A DNA stretch of 47,084 nt, from positions 1 through 47,084 of the IMG/VR virus record IMGVR_UViG_3300036835_000164; one strand, given 5' to 3'. Within the stretch, counting starts at the first letter, position 1, and each line of letters begins with the position of its first letter. The translations under genes and the position numbers were made by a program. Source of the DNA: a virus. Positions 3,043 to 22,847 of the stretch are shown one piece after another. Under the pieces are notes generated by a model. It was given only the letters and a program-made list of their open reading frames with translations. It did no database searches and was not told the DNA's origin.

Positions 3043-3058
3043 AACAGGGAAACGCGAG

Positions 3059-3316
3059 ATGAGAACGTTTTATGTTCTGTGGTGCAAAGATCATTTCTTT
3101 GCGAACCAAGATGTTAGGGTGGTCGAGGTGATTCCTGCGGAATCAGAGCGCGCAGCGCTCCAAGCTTTGACACGTAAAATGCCAGATATTCTAGCGAGGC
3201 TCGAAACCCGAAAGGGTTTCGTGAAAGTTGTGGAACAAGTTTTGCCGTGGCAACAAGCTGTGGACTGGTTGCCAATGGCAGAAGTTGTGAACCTCGCTAG
3301 TCGCAGATTGAACTGA
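3059..3316 (+). CDS. Hypothetical protein, 85 aa
   Basis: Starts MRTFYVLWCKDHFF, followed by an alpha/beta-looking body with no recognised motif. The upstream sequence is GGGAAACGCGAGATG, in which AACGCGAGA abuts the start; this word also precedes the starts at 2401, 3811 and 11606. A perfect hairpin with a GAAA loop (CGAAACCC/GGGTTTCG, 3202-3221) lies inside the coding sequence. Confidence 0.6.
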   Translation: MRTFYVLWCKDHFFANQDVRVVEVIPAESERAALQALTRKMPDILARLETRKGFVKVVEQVLPWQQAVDWLPMAEVVNLASRRLN

Positions 3317-3793: not shown

Positions 3794-3810
3794 CTAACGC
3801 GAGAACATAG

Positions 3811-11068: not shown

Positions 11069-11164
11069 TAGGATGTTGAAATAAACGCAAACCCAAACAC
11101 AATCCACCTTACAGGTGCCTCCGTGTGTAGTGAGTCTACCCCTGACGATGCATGCGGGGGCACC
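11059..11164 (+). promoter_or_regulatory. Leader with 11-base Shine-Dalgarno, MLK mini-ORF and long stem
   Basis: AAGGAGGTGAT (11059-11069) is a full complement of the usual 16S rRNA 3' end. Four bases on is ATG TTG AAA TAA (11073-11084), a three-codon frame. A stem follows: GGTGCCTCCG (11114-11123) with CGGGGGCACC (11155-11164), ten pairs including one G-T, enclosing GTAG-TGAGT-CTAC. The next gene starts at 11192. A translated leader controlling a structure would fit, but no riboswitch family is recognised and it is not a tRNA. Confidence 0.5.
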
Positions 11165-11584: not shown

Positions 11585-11605
11585 AATGGGAAAAGGAACG
11601 CGAGA

Positions 11606-11872
11606 ATGGGAAAACTACCCGACAAATCTAAGATGTTTCTGACGATGGCGCTGGGCTTCACGATGGTCCAGGCTGGCGTGGAAATGATGAATGACTTGTT
11701 TGATGATAAGAAGATGCACGACGAGTTGAACGGGTCCATTCCGAAGGAATGGCCGTTCCAGCTCTCGCTGGATGAGTTGAACCTGGAAGTGATGGCGTGC
11801 ATGCACTACTACAAAGACTTGGCAATTGCTGAAATTGCCGAGGGGTTGCGTTCGGAGAACGACAATGGCTAG
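11606..11872 (+). CDS. Hypothetical helical protein, 88 aa
   Basis: The ATG is preceded by AAAAGGAACGCGAGA; AACGCGAGA touches the start as it does at 3059. The protein is acidic and mostly helical (MHYYKDLAIAEIAEGLRSE at the end). No known motif. It overlaps the HTH gene by 8 bases. Confidence 0.6.
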   Translation: MGKLPDKSKMFLTMALGFTMVQAGVEMMNDLFDDKKMHDELNGSIPKEWPFQLSLDELNLEVMACMHYYKDLAIAEIAEGLRSENDNG

Positions 11873-12641: not shown

Positions 12642-13068
12642 GGCCGCTTACAATGAGTTCTACGACCAGCAGCCGCAGATGTTCTTCGAGGATCTTAGCC
12701 ATGCCTACCAAATGCGGTGGGTTAGGGCGATGAGGGTGGCGCTTGGGGACTGGAAACGGTCCACGCCTGGCGCCACGGTGGTCAGAGCAAGCCCAAAGAG
12801 GAGCGTCGTTGACCTGGGCGACGACGAGGCCGTGCATGCCCAGGCCAATGGAAAAGCCAGTAAAAAGGGTCCGAAGGGGATGGGAAAGAAGGTCACCAAG
12901 GCCGAGGCAAAAGAGCGCATTGCGCAATTGCAGGCGATGAATGAAGCGGACAGGGCATTGCTTTCCGATAAGCAACGGAAGGACAAGCCCAAGTCGGAGC
13001 TAAAGGTTATCTGGCGGATGGAAGCTCGTGGAAAACGCATCCGTCATTATGAAAGCTTGACAAACTAA
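12559..13068 (+). CDS. Hypothetical basic protein, 169 aa
   Basis: Starts behind GGAGGAGAAGGAAG and overlaps the zinc-finger gene by 83 bases in another frame. Highly basic ends flank a helical part (LSHAYQMRWVRAMRVALGDW); a KASKKGPKGMGKK linker precedes a Lys/Ala/Glu helix. Nucleic-acid binding is likely from charge, but no family is recognised. Confidence 0.6.
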   Translation: MNSRGKKPKGSRAMATGTRKPKDLMLAEAAYNEFYDQQPQMFFEDLSHAYQMRWVRAMRVALGDWKRSTPGATVVRASPKRSVVDLGDDEAVHAQANGKASKKGPKGMGKKVTKAEAKERIAQLQAMNEADRALLSDKQRKDKPKSELKVIWRMEARGKRIRHYESLTN

Positions 13069-13080
13069 TTGGCGGCTCAT

Positions 13081-13117
13081 TATGGTGGTGGGGTTCGGTA
13101 ATGAAACCCCCACCATA
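13081..13117. other. Intergenic hairpin before 13131
   Basis: TATGGTGG/CCACCATA with an inner GGGTT/AACCC, a two-base bulge and a nine-base loop. It lies between the stop at 13068 and the ribosome site of the next gene. Confidence 0.45.
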
Positions 13118-13130
13118 AGGAGCCTGGACT

Positions 13131-13502
13131 ATGCTTGAGCAGCAAATTACTGCCGAAATGACGGCAAAGAATGGCAACGAAGCGCGAAGCGCCACTGTAA
13201 CGGTTAACGTCCCAGAGAATTTGGAAGAGCTTGGACAGCATTTTGGGCAAGATGTTGTTTATAGTCACGCAAAACGTAGCATCGTGATAGCGATGCAGAC
13301 GAGCATTCGTGGGATGCTGGAGGCTGGGAAATCAGATGCTGAAATTCAGCAAGCTATGGTCGAGTGGAAGCCGGGTGTTAAGAGGCCGGCCAAGTCTCCG
13401 ATGGACCGCGTGCGCGAAGAGATTTCGCGCATGAGCCCAGAAGACAAGAAGCGCATCCTGAAAGAGCTTCGCGAGAAGGCCTCGAACGAGGCCCGTGCGT
13501 AA
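13131..13502 (+). CDS. Hypothetical protein, 123 aa
   Basis: AAGGAG precedes the ATG. Residues 22-60 contain TVTVNVPENLEELGQHFGQD, a strand then helix. The C-terminal half is basic and helical (MDRVREEISRMSPEDKKRIL), like many phage proteins with a 'MSPEExxxIlxxL' end. Function unknown. The structured region 13503-13685 follows its stop immediately. Confidence 0.6.
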   Translation: MLEQQITAEMTAKNGNEARSATVTVNVPENLEELGQHFGQDVVYSHAKRSIVIAMQTSIRGMLEAGKSDAEIQQAMVEWKPGVKRPAKSPMDRVREEISRMSPEDKKRILKELREKASNEARA

Positions 13503-13685
13503 GCCTTCGGAGTGGGCGTCCCCCCGCACCACTCCGGAACGTCCCTGCGCTTGGCCATTCTCTTCCCCGTGGTGGCTAGCCAGGGACCGGGCGCTGTCTG
13601 GGCATTCCCTCCCCCGACGCGCCCACCCCCTAGGTCGCTGGCCCCTGTTCTCGCGTTCAGGGAAACGGCCTAGGGGGCCTTTTTG
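13503..13685 (+). ncRNA. Candidate structured RNA of four stem-loops ending in a terminator
   Basis: No gene fits here. Four stems follow one another. H1: CGGAGTGG (13508) with CCACTCCG (13529). H2: GTCCCTG (13541) with CAGGGAC (13581), continued inward by GC/GC and TGGCCA/TGGCTA, about 15 pairs. H3: GGGCGC (13589) with GCGCCC (13619), continued by GTC/GAC. H4: CCCCCTAGG (13626) with CCTAGGGGG (13669), an inner CCCTG/CAGGG, then TTTTT at 13680-13684. The last is a rho-independent terminator. It could be a free small RNA or a 3' UTR. Confidence 0.6.
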
Positions 13686-13701
13686 TTTGCGGAGCAAGCA
13701 A

Positions 13702-13944
13702 ATGACACGTGAGCAAATCCGTCAACTTGTGGAGCATGTGACGGAGGCCCCTTGTCCTCCGGACAACGAAACAGTTCAAATGTCGTCACTACAGCAACTA
13801 GAGTTCATTTTCGCAATAGAAGACACATTGGAGTTCAGGCATGACATCCCTGCCGATGTGGCATGGCAGTGCGTCAATGATGTAGTCAAGTGGCTGGAGG
13901 ACAAAGGTGAGTACGAAGAGGCCGAGAGTGTTCGTGCCAAATAA
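13702..13944 (+). CDS. Acyl-carrier-protein-like protein, 80 aa
   Basis: Residues 27-68 follow the carrier-protein helix pattern: MSSLQQLEFIFAIEDTLEF, then HDIPADVAWQCVNDVVKWLE. Compare the family's 'DSLdxvelvmalEeeFxxxIPdedaekixtvxdav'. The Ser before Leu in MSSL falls where the phosphopantetheine Ser sits, though the usual preceding Asp is Ser here. Length is right for ACP. It could accept a host prosthetic group or mimic ACP as a regulator; activity is unproven. Ribosome site GGAGCAAG. Confidence 0.65.
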   Translation: MTREQIRQLVEHVTEAPCPPDNETVQMSSLQQLEFIFAIEDTLEFRHDIPADVAWQCVNDVVKWLEDKGEYEEAESVRAK

Positions 13945-17036: not shown

Positions 17037-17318
17037 ATGGATAGGCTTAAGACGTTGCGGAAAGACCTACTGGAAATGAGCCCGGCAGAGTTGCGCGAAC
17101 ACGTTCGCCGCATCCGTGTCGAGCGTAGAGTTTACAAGGAAAAGCCTGCCGCCAAGCGGAAGGCTAAAGTCAAGAGCAACAAGTCAGCTTCAAAGGTCGT
17201 CAACATGCTTCACACATTGACGCCGGAAGAGATCCGGCGCTTGCTTGGAGAGGTGGACGATGATGGAGGTAGTGGAAATACCAATCGACCAAATCAAGGT
17301 CGGCAAGAGAGCCCGTGA
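17037..17318 (+). CDS. Small basic conserved phage protein, 93 aa
   Basis: MDRLKTLRKDLLEMSPAELR, then a basic VRRIRVERRVYKEKPAAKRK stretch and LTPEEIRRLLGEV. This two-helix, Lys-rich design occurs upstream of replication genes in many phages; function unknown. It overlaps the methyltransferase start by 59 bases. Confidence 0.65.
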   Translation: MDRLKTLRKDLLEMSPAELREHVRRIRVERRVYKEKPAAKRKAKVKSNKSASKVVNMLHTLTPEEIRRLLGEVDDDGGSGNTNRPNQGRQESP

Positions 17319-18576
17319 CATCTTCGACGAAGTGGAGATGCGGGAGCTGGAGGAGTCTATTCAGCAAAAGGGGTTGTTCCAGCCCATAACAATTGACGTT
17401 TACAAGAATCTGGTCGCTGGGGAGCGTAGGCTTCGGGCGCACAGAAACTTGGGGCTTGCTACGATCCCGTGCGTCATTCGAGACGAAGACGTAATGGACA
17501 AGTTAAGGATTGAATTGCATGAGAATGTGAGGCGTTCCAACCTGACATGGCACGAACGGTGCCGGTTCGAACAGAGAATCTGGAACGCTGGCGTTGAAAA
17601 GCATGGCGAGATGTACTGGTCACTGGCAAAGCAGCAGGAAATGTTCGGGTCATCTAAGACCCGAATAATGATGCGGTTGCAAGTGGCTGAGGCAATGGAA
17701 ACGATTCCGGAGTTGACTAATTGCGTTGACCTCGACGAAGCGTTTAAAGAAGTTAAACGCGGCGAGGAGGTGGAACACATCCGAGCCTTGATGCACAAGA
17801 CAGCGGAAGAGGCCGCCGAGGCTCCTAAGTGGGCAGAGGACCACTATGTAATTGGGGATGCTTTTAATGGGATGCAGAAGTTCCTCAACACGCAGCCGCA
17901 CTCCCAAGGGAATGCGTTCCAGTTCGCGGAGGTTGATCCTCCTTATGGAGTTGACCTACACAGACGAAAGGGACGAAACACAGACACTAGCTCTATGGAA
18001 GAATATCTCGAGTGGGAAGATTTTCCTCAGCTGTTCGAGAAGACCGCGAAGCTCGTCTACGAATGTTTGGACCCTCATGCGTTCGCAATCTTCTGGTATG
18101 GAATGTCCCGACACTCTGAGGTGTTGGGAATTCTGCGTAGCGTGGGATGGGCAGTCCCTGATATCCCAGCGATTTGGTTTAAAGGTGAAGTTGGACAGAC
18201 CGCAAGTCCAGATACCACTCTTGGGAGTTGCTATGAACCTTTCTTCGTCGCGAGGAAAGGACAGCCTAAGATGGCAAGACCTGGGCGCGGAAATGTTTTC
18301 AACTTCCCAAGACTTCAAAGGAAGACGCACCCCACGGAGAAGCCGGTCCACCTGATGGAGGAGCTACTGGGAACGTTCTGCTTCGCGGGGTCGAAGGTGC
18401 TAGTGCCATTCCTAGGCAGTGGTGTGACGTTGAGGGCATCGTACCGGATTGGTTTGAGTGGCATGGGCTGGGACCTGAGTGACAAGCACAAGCAAGGGTT
18501 CCTCTACACGGTGCAGCAGGACTTGAGGGAAGCTGAGGCCTCCAACGAGGAGGCAGTCAATGCCAACCCCGTATGA
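17260..18576 (+). CDS. ParB-domain DNA methyltransferase, 438 aa
   Basis: Residues 1-100 are a ParB/Srx-like domain (EIPIDQIKVGKRA, QKGLFQPITI, GERRLRAHRNLG). From about residue 220 comes a DNA methyltransferase: catalytic DPPYG at about 226-230 and the SAM-binding FLGSGVTLRASY near the end, with KTHPTEKPVHLMEEL before it. DPPY before the FxGxG motif is the beta-type order, N6-adenine or N4-cytosine. The probable role is genome protection or marking; target unknown. I chose ATG 17260 (GGAGAGG upstream) over an in-frame TTG at 17245. Confidence 0.9.
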   Translation: MMEVVEIPIDQIKVGKRARDIFDEVEMRELEESIQQKGLFQPITIDVYKNLVAGERRLRAHRNLGLATIPCVIRDEDVMDKLRIELHENVRRSNLTWHERCRFEQRIWNAGVEKHGEMYWSLAKQQEMFGSSKTRIMMRLQVAEAMETIPELTNCVDLDEAFKEVKRGEEVEHIRALMHKTAEEAAEAPKWAEDHYVIGDAFNGMQKFLNTQPHSQGNAFQFAEVDPPYGVDLHRRKGRNTDTSSMEEYLEWEDFPQLFEKTAKLVYECLDPHAFAIFWYGMSRHSEVLGILRSVGWAVPDIPAIWFKGEVGQTASPDTTLGSCYEPFFVARKGQPKMARPGRGNVFNFPRLQRKTHPTEKPVHLMEELLGTFCFAGSKVLVPFLGSGVTLRASYRIGLSGMGWDLSDKHKQGFLYTVQQDLREAEASNEEAVNANPV

Positions 18577-20191
18577 AGATGGAGATCCAGGAGCACCGAT
18601 ATGTGTTTTAGGCGAGGCTCCAAGCAGCGTGGAGATGAGGATCGGAAGGCCTTTCGTTGGGCCTTCTGGCGACGTGTTCAAAGACCTGCTAAGCACAGCA
18701 GGTCTCTCACGGAGAGACTGTTACATACTGAACGTATGGCCATGGCAGGTGACGAAGGACAGGCTGGGGAACATAATCAGCCCATACAACGAGAAGCTGT
18801 GGGACAGAAACAAAGGCTTCACAGACCAAGGGGACATAGAGGCTCTTGGCGCAATCGACAAGGTGAGAAGATGCAAAGCGAATTGCGTGCTTACTTTAGG
18901 CAATCCGGCCCTCGATGCGTTGTCGTCAGGCCACAAGCCGATTGGCAAGTGGAGGGGCTCACCCTTATTCTCAAAGAGGGTGGGAAAGAAATTCATACCC
19001 ACATTCCACCCAGCCGCAACTCTGCATGGTGTGTATGTGTGGAGATATCTGATCTTGTGGGATTTAGGGAAGCTAAAGGACGAACTCAGCTCCCCGGAGC
19101 TGGTGCTGCCGGATCGCAACTTGATAACCGCGCCTTCATGGGCCGAAGTCAGCGAGTACTTCGAACTGTGTTCCCGCGCGGGGAGAGTGTGCACGGATCT
19201 GGAGGTGATAAACAATCACGTGAACTGCTTCAGCCTGGCCTACCGAGTGGACGAGTCGCTGACCGTTCCACTGGTGAATGAGCATCGAGAGCCTTACTGG
19301 AGCGAGGACCAGGAGATTGAGATATGGCAAAAGTATGCCACCTTGATGGGCGACCCTGGAGTAATGAAGATCAATCACAATATGATCGGCTTCGATGCAG
19401 TGTTCCTGTTAGACAAATGCAACATATACATGCATGGGCCTATTGGCGACTCAATGATTGCACAGTCGATCCTGTACCCAGACTTCCGGATGGGACTAGA
19501 CATGACGGCAAGCATTCACACGCGGCAGCCCTACTGGAAAGATGAGGGCAAGATATGGAAGCCAAACCACAATATTTCGTGGGACCAGTTTCAGAGATAC
19601 TGCGGATTGGACGCCGCTGCTACCTTGGAGTGCTGGTGCCAGTTAGAACAAGAGTTGTCAGAGGGGGACTACTGGCGAACCTACGACATGACCGTAAAAC
19701 TGAAAAGCCCCTTAGCCTACATGACAATCAGGGGACTTAAAATCGACCGAGAAGGTCTTGAGCTAGCAAAGGTTAGAGTACAGGAGAGGTTAAATGCCAA
19801 GAGCCAGGAACTCAAGGATGTCGCAGACTACGAGTTTAACCCCCTCAGTCCGAAGCAGTGTTCCGAATACCTATATGAGCACTGCCGAAATGAGCCATAT
19901 AGAAACTCGACTGGAGGAATTAGCACAGACGATAAAGCGCTCTCTCGTCTTGTGCGAAAAGCTGCAAGAGGATCTAGGGAAGCTAAGGTCATCCAGGAAA
20001 TTCGAGCTTTAAACAAGCTGAAGAGTACATACCTGGAGGTCGAACTTGATGGGGACGATAGACTAAGATGTTCATGGAATCCGCGTGGGACGGTCTTCGG
20101 TCGGCTATCATCTTCGCAGACGATTGCTGGCACTGGGTTGAACCTCCAAAATCTCCATCCGGAGTTCAAGAGCTTTATTGTAGCGGGGTAA
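18560..20191 (+). CDS. DNA polymerase A, N-terminal piece: UDG-like plus 3'-5' exonuclease
   Basis: Residues 1-180 resemble family 4/5 uracil-DNA glycosylases: GEAPSSVEM at 18-26, GRPFVGPSG, and TFHPAATLHG with His150. Next is a proofreading exonuclease: Exo I CTDLEV (Asp213, Glu215), Exo II INHNMIGFDAVF (Asp279), Exo III YCGLDAAAT (Tyr347, Asp351). The thumb follows and the piece reaches FGRLSSS and NLQNLHPEFKSFIVAG, then stops. That is right before motif A, which is at 21837. SPO1 polymerase has a similar glycosylase-like front. The second piece starts 1.6 kb downstream. Start behind GAGGAGG. Confidence 0.9.
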   Translation: MPTPYEDGDPGAPICVLGEAPSSVEMRIGRPFVGPSGDVFKDLLSTAGLSRRDCYILNVWPWQVTKDRLGNIISPYNEKLWDRNKGFTDQGDIEALGAIDKVRRCKANCVLTLGNPALDALSSGHKPIGKWRGSPLFSKRVGKKFIPTFHPAATLHGVYVWRYLILWDLGKLKDELSSPELVLPDRNLITAPSWAEVSEYFELCSRAGRVCTDLEVINNHVNCFSLAYRVDESLTVPLVNEHREPYWSEDQEIEIWQKYATLMGDPGVMKINHNMIGFDAVFLLDKCNIYMHGPIGDSMIAQSILYPDFRMGLDMTASIHTRQPYWKDEGKIWKPNHNISWDQFQRYCGLDAAATLECWCQLEQELSEGDYWRTYDMTVKLKSPLAYMTIRGLKIDREGLELAKVRVQERLNAKSQELKDVADYEFNPLSPKQCSEYLYEHCRNEPYRNSTGGISTDDKALSRLVRKAARGSREAKVIQEIRALNKLKSTYLEVELDGDDRLRCSWNPRGTVFGRLSSSQTIAGTGLNLQNLHPEFKSFIVAG

Positions 20192-20852: not shown

Positions 20853-20947
20853 GCTAACATGAAGTGCGAGCTGTGCAAGTCTGAAGTGGAGCGGGCTTGC
20901 ACAGCCTTCGTGCAAGTCGCTTACTGTGACACATGGAGGAGCAAATC

Positions 20948-21832
20948 ATGCAAGTCACTCCGAGAGTCGTTGATCTCTCTCATTATCAATACGACGAACT
21001 GGGAGGGCGCTTTGATTGGGACGCTATACGGCGCTTCGGAATTTGGGGTGTCATCTACAAGGCGACGGAAGGCTCCAGCTACGTCGACTACACGTACCAA
21101 GACGCGCGCCGCCAAGTCGAAGACGCTGGCCTCCTCTTCGGGGCCTACCACTTCTTCCGTCCTGGAGATGCTACAGCGCAAGCAGACCACTTTCTGGAGA
21201 ATGCCGCGCCAGACGGAGGAACCCTGTTGGTGCTGGATCACGAAGACGACGGATGCTCCATCGGAGACGTTAAGGAGTTCATGAAGCGCGTCGAGGACAA
21301 GACCGGCCAGAGGCCGGCGCTGTACTCTGGCAACGTCATCAAGGAGCAACTGGGGAGTAACCGGGATGAGTATCTCGCCTCTTGTAGGCTGTGGTTGTGT
21401 CAGTATGGAAGCTCTCCTTCATGGCCACCGAACTGGGACAGCATGTGGCTCTGGCAGTACACAGATGGGGCCGCAGGGCCCAGTCCGCACGAAGTACCGG
21501 GCATCGGGAACTGTGACATCAACAGTTATGGCTTGTCTCAGGCGGACCTCGAAAGAAGCTGGGCGCCTGGAGCCGGGCCAGACGTTGACGTTGAGACGGG
21601 AATGACTGCAGACGAAATGCTCTGGACGCAGGCCAGTTTGAATGTGGTCTCGAATGCTGGCCTGGAGCCCGATGGCCTGTACGGCCCGGCAACTGCCGGT
21701 GCATTGAAAGAATTTCAGCGCAGGCACGGGATTGCCCCTACGGGGCAGCCTACGAAGGGCACAGTGCAAGCCATACTGGAGGAGCTTGATGCCTGGAATG
21801 ACGACCGCAGAATCATCAATGTTGATTCTTGA
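20948..21832 (+). CDS. Endolysin: GH25 muramidase with peptidoglycan-binding domain, 294 aa
   Basis: GH25 lysozyme fold: VVDLSHYQ (Asp9) at the start, FGAYHFFRPG near 64-73, and the catalytic LLVLDHEDD (Asp97, Glu99). GH25 enzymes cut the MurNAc-GlcNAc bond. From about residue 218 there is a PG_binding_1 domain (LEPDGLYGPATAGALKEFQ). No signal peptide, so release needs the holin-like protein upstream. Start at 20948 chosen for GGAGGAGC. Its end overlaps the second polymerase piece by 44 bases. Confidence 0.9.
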   Translation: MQVTPRVVDLSHYQYDELGGRFDWDAIRRFGIWGVIYKATEGSSYVDYTYQDARRQVEDAGLLFGAYHFFRPGDATAQADHFLENAAPDGGTLLVLDHEDDGCSIGDVKEFMKRVEDKTGQRPALYSGNVIKEQLGSNRDEYLASCRLWLCQYGSSPSWPPNWDSMWLWQYTDGAAGPSPHEVPGIGNCDINSYGLSQADLERSWAPGAGPDVDVETGMTADEMLWTQASLNVVSNAGLEPDGLYGPATAGALKEFQRRHGIAPTGQPTKGTVQAILEELDAWNDDRRIINVDS

Positions 21833-22847
21833 GTTCGATCTTGCCGGTGCAGAGTGGGTGGTCGTGGCTTACCTGAGCCGCGACCCTAACATGCTGGAAG
21901 TTGTCCGCTCAGGAAAGTCTCCGCACATAGTCACTGGGGCGCTGATCTCCGGCGCCCCGGAGGAGTTCGTTCTCGAGGAACACAAAGTCGTTGGCTCGCA
22001 CACAGATGCGACTACAATAGAGATGCTGCGGAAAAGCCTGCATGTTCCGCCGCAGATCTTTCTGCCTAGGGTGATGTCCATCAGGCAGGCTGGTAAGAAA
22101 AGTAATCATGGTCTCAACTACAACATGAAGTACCGTAGGTTTGCGCTTGAGAATGAAATGCTGGAAGCAGACGCTCAGCCTATTGTTGAGCGTTACGTCA
22201 ACGTAGCCTACCCAGGAATCAAGAACTACTGGGAGTCCATCAGGAAGGAACTCAAGGACAACAAGCGGACGATGGTCAACTGCTTTGGGCGGCGGGTTAA
22301 GCTCAGAGGAGAATGGGGCGAGGAGTTGTTCAATCAGGCCTACAGCTTCAAGCCGCAAAGCACTGTAGTCGACATTGTAAACGCTGCCATGGTGCTTGCC
22401 TACGAAGATGAGTCCCCTGACTTTGAAAACTTTTTCCTTGGGGCACAAGTACATGACTCCCTTCATGTGCAAGCCATCGTCCCGCAGACGCGGGACGAAT
22501 GGCTAAGCCTTGCCCGCATGGTTTTAGTTCTCAAAGAGAACTACATGCGGCCGACACTATCATACAACGGGGTGGAGTTCAAGCTCGGCTGCGATGCCAA
22601 GCTCGGCATCAACTGGGGCAACATGGAGAGCTTCAAAACTAGTGACGACATCGAGGATGTCGTCACGCGAGTCCGCGCTGCCTACGACGTCTGTCTTGCA
22701 AGTAAGAGCGCGCACCCTGCGGGCTCGGAGGAACAGGTGGAGGAGGCGGTGGAATCGTTGTCGGAAGAGTCTGAGGCTCATTTCCTGCAGCGGCTAAGAT
22801 CTGAGCACCAAGATTGGGGAGGGCAGGGGGACCTGGGGGCGGCTTAA
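21789..22847 (+). CDS. DNA polymerase A, C-terminal piece: palm and fingers, 352 aa
   Basis: Carries the three polymerase motifs. Motif A is LILEFDLAGAEWVVVAYLS (Asp17). Motif B is RQAGKKSNHGLNYNM near 99-113, with His where most family members have Phe. Motif C is QVHDSL (His222-Asp223), with Ser for the usual Glu. It begins where the piece ending at 20191 stops, so the two make one complete polymerase if they assemble or are spliced. It has its own ribosome site GGAGGAG 4 bases before ATG 21789. Conserved sequence ends near 22635; the acidic tail beyond overlaps the convergent late gene. Confidence 0.9.
   Translation: MPGMTTAESSMLILEFDLAGAEWVVVAYLSRDPNMLEVVRSGKSPHIVTGALISGAPEEFVLEEHKVVGSHTDATTIEMLRKSLHVPPQIFLPRVMSIRQAGKKSNHGLNYNMKYRRFALENEMLEADAQPIVERYVNVAYPGIKNYWESIRKELKDNKRTMVNCFGRRVKLRGEWGEELFNQAYSFKPQSTVVDIVNAAMVLAYEDESPDFENFFLGAQVHDSLHVQAIVPQTRDEWLSLARMVLVLKENYMRPTLSYNGVEFKLGCDAKLGINWGNMESFKTSDDIEDVVTRVRAAYDVCLASKSAHPAGSEEQVEEAVESLSEESEAHFLQRLRSEHQDWGGQGDLGAA
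22642..22666. terminator. Perfect 11-bp hairpin at the convergent gene overlap
   Basis: GTGACGACATC-GAG-GATGTCGTCAC. It lies within the polymerase tail, and the minus-strand stop codon (22663-22665) is inside it. It could slow transcription from both sides. Confidence 0.5.

Follow-up and report, generated by a model that had tools for sequence, protein, structure and literature searches.

A conserved four-hairpin RNA with C-rich loops downstream of a phage gene is probably a small regulatory RNA

A gene-free gap in a phage genome folds into four hairpins

To our knowledge, structured RNAs of phages from uncultured hosts have barely been described, and one gene-free gap in a phage genome raises the question of whether such an RNA lies there and what it may do. 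The window analysed here is the whole 47,084-base stretch of an IMG/VR record of an uncultured phage, which encodes a PD-(D/E)XK nuclease, a Sak4-like ATPase, an SSB-like protein, a ParB-methyltransferase fusion and a DNA polymerase (the last identified from its own sequence). Host assignment by terminase matched distant phages of many hosts only, and a genome search matched one Bacteroidetes MAG contig, which gives no host assignment. The gap runs from the stop of a small gene at 13502 to the ATG of an ACP-like gene at 13702. An original prediction, made from the letters alone, had placed there four consecutive stems that ended in a rho-independent terminator and belonged to no recognised RNA class. 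The relevant features are as follows.

13131..13502, + strand: conserved small gene whose predicted 3' UTR is the RNA element; 123-aa product of no known family
13503..13685, + strand: whole structured RNA element of four hairpins, from folding and comparison with relatives
13506..13538, + strand: hairpin H1, 13 pairs, loop with UCCCCCC (13519-13525); stem compensated in relatives L007 and L002
13541..13587, + strand: hairpin H2, about 17 pairs with two bulges, loop CUCUUCCCCG (13560-13569)
13589..13624, + strand: hairpin H3, 9 pairs and a weak inner 3, loop CAUUCCCUCCCCC (13603-13615)
13626..13684, + strand: hairpin H4, intrinsic terminator (stem-loop 13626-13677, U tract 13680-13684)
13057..13086, + strand: sigma-70-like promoter candidate of the message ending in the RNA (TTGACA, 18 nt, TATGGT), by consensus match only
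17245-18576: gene fusing a ParB N-terminal domain to an N6/N4 DNA methylase

The minimum free energy of 13503-13702 was -109 kcal/mol, compared with -82.3 ± 4.5 kcal/mol for 200 dinucleotide shuffles (z = -5.91), none of which folded as low (0/200), and the four predicted stems were thus borne out. Across 13503-13685 the reading frame of the ACP-like gene is open in the window, but L007 and L002 both carry stops in it; a coding explanation of the gap is therefore not supported. H4 consists of a 12-pair outer stem, an internal loop and 5 inner pairs, and its U tract is encoded by TTTTT at 13680-13684. It therefore has the G+C-rich stem-loop and U run of an intrinsic terminator, just before the ACP-like gene as predicted, and it was called by a terminator scan, although that scan also averages 7 terminator-like matches on shuffles of the 8-kb region. 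Like other intrinsic terminators, H4 has a stable stem and then U5; unlike plain ones, it has conserved internal and apical loops and is preceded by three hairpins. The Rfam search that had been proposed returned no family for 13503-13685 at the gathering score, and relaxing the cut-off to E up to 10 added only matches at the level of chance; a tRNA/tmRNA search of the same region returned nothing, in agreement with the prediction that the element is not a tRNA, tmRNA, 6S RNA or riboswitch. The same searches on ten relatives found nothing except an unrelated tRNA gene in L069 (3646-3718).

The element had been thought to arise either from a promoter inside gene 13131 or from processing of the upstream message. 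No promoter-like site was found inside the gene and the best candidate lies upstream of it, at 13057, which favours an origin of the RNA as 3' UTR of the 13131 message. L002 carries TTGACA-18-CATGGT at the equivalent relative position. We also noted a long hairpin (TTATGGTGGTGGGGTT...AACCCCCACCATAA) at 13085-13120, between the promoter-like site and gene 13131, and a different strong hairpin upstream of the 13131 homologue in L002.

Several observations concern the surrounding genes. The C-terminal stretch LTPEEIRRLLGEV of a small protein at 17037-17318 is similar to the C-terminal MSPEDKKRILKEL of the 13131 protein, and a 13131 profile weakly matches similar frames in several relatives. The DNA polymerase A gene is split (18560-20191 and about 21825-22847) just 5' of motif A (LEFDLAGAEW), and its halves are separated by a gene for a GH25-like lysozyme (20933-21832); the relative contig L189 has a separate frame too, beginning MLLEFDLAGAEW and with its own SD.

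Pairing is conserved through compensatory change

Relatives were sought via neighbouring genes, since a DNA search of annotated phages found no similarity. Further scans with the ACP gene and the terminator pattern yielded only L002 and L007 as close relatives, both of them genome fragments. L007 is the closest (72% identity to the window in gene 13131 and 77% in the nuclease), with L002 at 64%. All four hairpins are kept in L007 despite changed stems, and three are kept in L002 (fold z = -6.1). Between the window and L007, 0/47 aligned pairs were broken and 23/47 were altered on both sides, while the comparison with L002 gave no broken pair and 21 of 32 pairs altered on both sides; the helices were aligned by hand from the loop outward, and the alignment leans towards structure because it was built on structure, yet each sequence folds in this way on its own. 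The original prediction had staked itself on conserved pairing in relatives, and pairing is indeed maintained in L007 and L002 by extensive compensatory change. Structure and conservation of the RNA are thus well supported. The H4 loop core CUCGCGUU is conserved in both relatives with the flanking and outer stem changed, and the adjoining CGCUGGCCC is also kept in L007.

C-rich loops recur after homologues of gene 13131

We further examined the wider family, locating homologues of gene 13131 in about 60 loci. In the 195 nt after the stop codon, the median fold z was -3.3 against shuffles across 54 contigs, and most of these contigs have structured hairpins 3' of the homologue, a good number of them with C-rich loops. 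Loops containing CCC numbered 46 in these regions (14.1 expected), and in the apical loops of 52 non-redundant sequences both CCCC (51 vs 4.8 expected) and UCCC (29 vs 3.2) were enriched 9-10 fold. The motif is also specific to place and strand: hairpins with CCCC loops were 40-fold denser in the 220 nt after gene 13131 (14 in 11.9 kb) than over the rest of the same strand (12 in 409 kb), and only one was found on the opposite strand in all contigs, a strand preference that points to RNA. Control loops (GGGG, TTTT, AAAA, GAAA and TTCG) at the same place gave 0-5 fold. In the window itself, a strong + strand hairpin with a CUACCCC-containing loop also occupies 11114-11164, between genes 10838 and 11177.

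Most relatives carry one to three hairpins directly 3' of the gene, often overlapping its stop codon, and hairpin number and sequence vary widely among them. Such an arrangement would suit message protection, and the variability would likewise fit an ordinary 3' end, in which a terminator and stabilising hairpins protect the 13131 mRNA and insulate the next gene, with the C-rich loops serving stability or termination and regulating nothing in trans. However, stability needs no special loop, and the loop enrichment is strong and place-specific. We consider this account doubtful, although it deserves serious weight.

GGGG was not enriched at gene starts of the phages with CCCC loops relative to other phages, and C-rich loops showed no preference for the phages' own starts; their partners may therefore be host messages or a protein. 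A short constant motif repeated on variable stems, poly-C in place of a fixed anti-SD, and always adjoining the same gene would agree with binding sites for a phage or host protein (for instance the 13131 product, a cold-shock protein or Rho), the element serving either as a sponge or for autoregulation in the manner of CsrB but C-rich, and so would the lack of preference for own starts. Against the 13131 product stands its lack of any recognisable nucleic-acid-binding domain, together with a fold search of its AlphaFold model (pLDDT 93) against PDB and viral folds that gave no significant match. A protein-binding element would also leave unexplained the complementarities of the H4 loop and of two further phages' loops described below, and we hold it to be improbable.

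The terminator loop matches three ribosome-binding regions

L007 and L002 preserve the core of the H4 loop UCUCGCGUU. This loop is complementary to AACGCGAGA, found in the window at 3051, 3796, 5132 and 11597. Three of these copies lie directly at gene starts, those of genes 3059 (85 aa), 3811 (59 aa) and 11606 (88 aa), and the fourth lies within a coding region of the opposite strand. The proposed seed and targets, all based on complementarity, are listed below.

13644..13658, + strand: proposed seed in the H4 loop, CCUGUUCUCGCGUUC
11596..11610, + strand: proposed target GAACGCGAGAAUGGG, SD to start codon of gene 11606, 15 contiguous pairs
3796..3807, + strand: proposed target AACGCGAGAACA upstream of ATG 3811, 12 nt complementary
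3051..3059, + strand: proposed target AACGCGAGA overlapping ATG 3059

Of all the RNA's 9-mers, TCTCGCGTT alone has four complementary copies on the + strand (0.2 expected), and AACGCGAGA is the only 9-mer common to at least 3 of the 55 curated starts in the window. RNAduplex gave -26.4 kcal/mol for the H4 loop with the start of gene 11606 (z = -5.4), spanning the SD to beyond the AUG. The three target leaders are otherwise unalike, so common descent of the leader is unlikely. Because the terminator loop matches three ribosome-binding regions base for base, the four-hairpin element is probably a small regulatory RNA of a kind uncatalogued in Rfam. An ordinary 3' end accounts poorly for a loop core that is better kept than its flanking stems and that matches three gene starts.

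The 9-mer could also be read at the level of DNA, as a site for a DNA-binding protein with the hairpins incidental. Five exact copies of AACGCGAGA/TCTCGCGTT are present in the 47 kb, counting both orientations, and the ParB-N6/N4 methylase gene begins at 17245. Three of the four complementary copies, however, are located either in the SD-AUG interval or at the AUG itself, the CCCC-loop hairpins are strand-specific and the stems contain G-U pairs, and we therefore regard this reading as very improbable.

A search of eight relatives turned up no homologue of target gene 11606 or of gene 9869. A scan of viral contigs with AAGGAACGCGAGAATG gave 9 matches, which carry no information since AAGGAACGCGAGAATG resembles an SD and has ATG at its end.

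Loop-to-start complementarity in two distant relatives

Next, the comparison was extended to complete or long contigs, comprising 33 relatives and the window (34 genomes). Exact loop-to-start complementarity was found in 3 of these, the window, G001 and G004, and was not detected in the other 31; that most relatives have no target in their own genome is in keeping with an ordinary 3' end. G001 and G004 are distant relatives (38% identity in gene 13131 for G001), with loop sequences unrelated to that of the window. The second-hairpin loop of G001, UUGUCACCUAU, is complementary to AUAGGUGACA, directly before three ATGs, and the first-hairpin loop of G004 is complementary to GAAAGGCAA at several starts, over up to 13 nt, although one of the sites falls within the SSB-like gene. 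Both loops are themselves anti-SD-like, and matches at ribosome-binding sites are therefore partly expected.

In a blind test, 9-mers occurring in at least three automatically called leaders of a genome were taken and their complement was sought in the RNA of the same phage. Two of 103 shared leader 9-mers, from G001 and G004, had such a complement, both in apical loops, against an expectation of about 0.08 from a simple 4^-9 estimate. The window case was missed by the automatic gene caller and was found using the curated gene list. Looser tests were less favourable. With starts defined as any ATG of a 40-codon frame, the signal was not unusual: 30 of 34 genomes gave nothing, and the four best tails were 0.02-0.08 (window, 0.064; G001, 0.019; G004, 0.028). 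A swap control run with 9-mers across the full 190 nt did not exceed the sense-strand control, whereas a swap test with 8-mers confined to loops gave 87 vs 57.5, with G001 and G004 ranked first of 34 and the window 7 of 34. Judged from sequence, loop-to-start pairing is well indicated in these three phages; given the looser tests, we confine it to them and treat it as unproven for the family.

A candidate base-pairing RNA from the 3' UTR of gene 13131

We propose that the element is a base-pairing RNA derived from the 3' UTR of gene 13131, whose loops would pair with ribosome-binding regions of mRNAs and block their translation, a mechanism for which we see the chances as evenly balanced. The 13131 message would start at the promoter-like site at 13057 and end at the H4 terminator, giving a stable RNA that may act whole or after processing and whose stable stems would expose several unpaired loops rich in C or in pyrimidines. 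In the cell, the H4 loop would base-pair with the messages of genes 3059, 3811 and 11606 from the SD to the AUG and cover their ribosome-binding sites, so that these targets would cease to be translated after expression of gene 13131. With their UCCCC loops, H1-H3 could bind Shine-Dalgarno sequences or G-tracts in general, perhaps those of host mRNAs. A broader version would make this a family-wide regulon, in which one apical loop co-evolves with a private SD-AUG motif of several of the phage's own genes (AACGCGAGA, AUAGGUGACA and GAAAGGCAA) and the UCCCC loops common to these phages are directed at host messages or at a host protein; we offer it only tentatively and think it rather unlikely to hold as a whole.

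Relation to known RNAs and significance

The closest known layout is that of the cuckoo / alpha-r14 anti-SD RNAs of Rhizobiales (SmelA075, SmelA099 and NfeR1), which place two to four hairpin modules in a row, each loop with the C-rich anti-SD CCUCCUCCC, the number of modules being variable and the stems highly diverged (PMC3927594, PMC10746234). The phage RNA shares the consecutive modules and diverged stems, and by analogy it may work alike. In contrast, its loops are UCCCC or poly-C and lack a constant CCUCCUCCC (best match with 2 mismatches in the window and 1 in L007), and it is phage-borne, tied to one phage gene and equipped with a terminator loop carrying its own specific seed. Because the defining loop sequence is absent and Rfam gave no match, we did not file it as a member of this group.

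Exposed C-rich loops are likewise found in other bacterial sRNAs, such as those of Staphylococcus aureus with an exposed C-rich UCCC motif. We know of no sequence relation between the phage RNA and GsrN or the C-rich-motif sRNAs. In Caulobacter, GsrN pairs an exposed C-rich loop with G-rich mRNA leaders (PMC5869019). GsrN has one such loop and the phage RNA several, and unlike targets of the GsrN type, leaders of the CCCC-loop phages are not enriched in G-tracts. Phage trans-acting sRNAs exist as a general kind, as PreS (lambda), VpdS (VP882) and IpeX show; these are made during infection, IpeX by processing from a longer phage transcript (PMC12197685). They differ in structure and act largely on host mRNAs or sRNAs, whereas the predicted targets here are the phage's own gene starts.

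The phage RNA described here offers covariation, a loop motif recurring in some 50 divergent contigs, and a named seed with testable targets in three phages. If the proposed mechanism is true, phages would control a post-transcriptional regulon of their own with an RNA taken from the 3' UTR of a single conserved gene, and the multi-hairpin anti-SD layout of alphaproteobacterial sRNAs would have been reused by phages.
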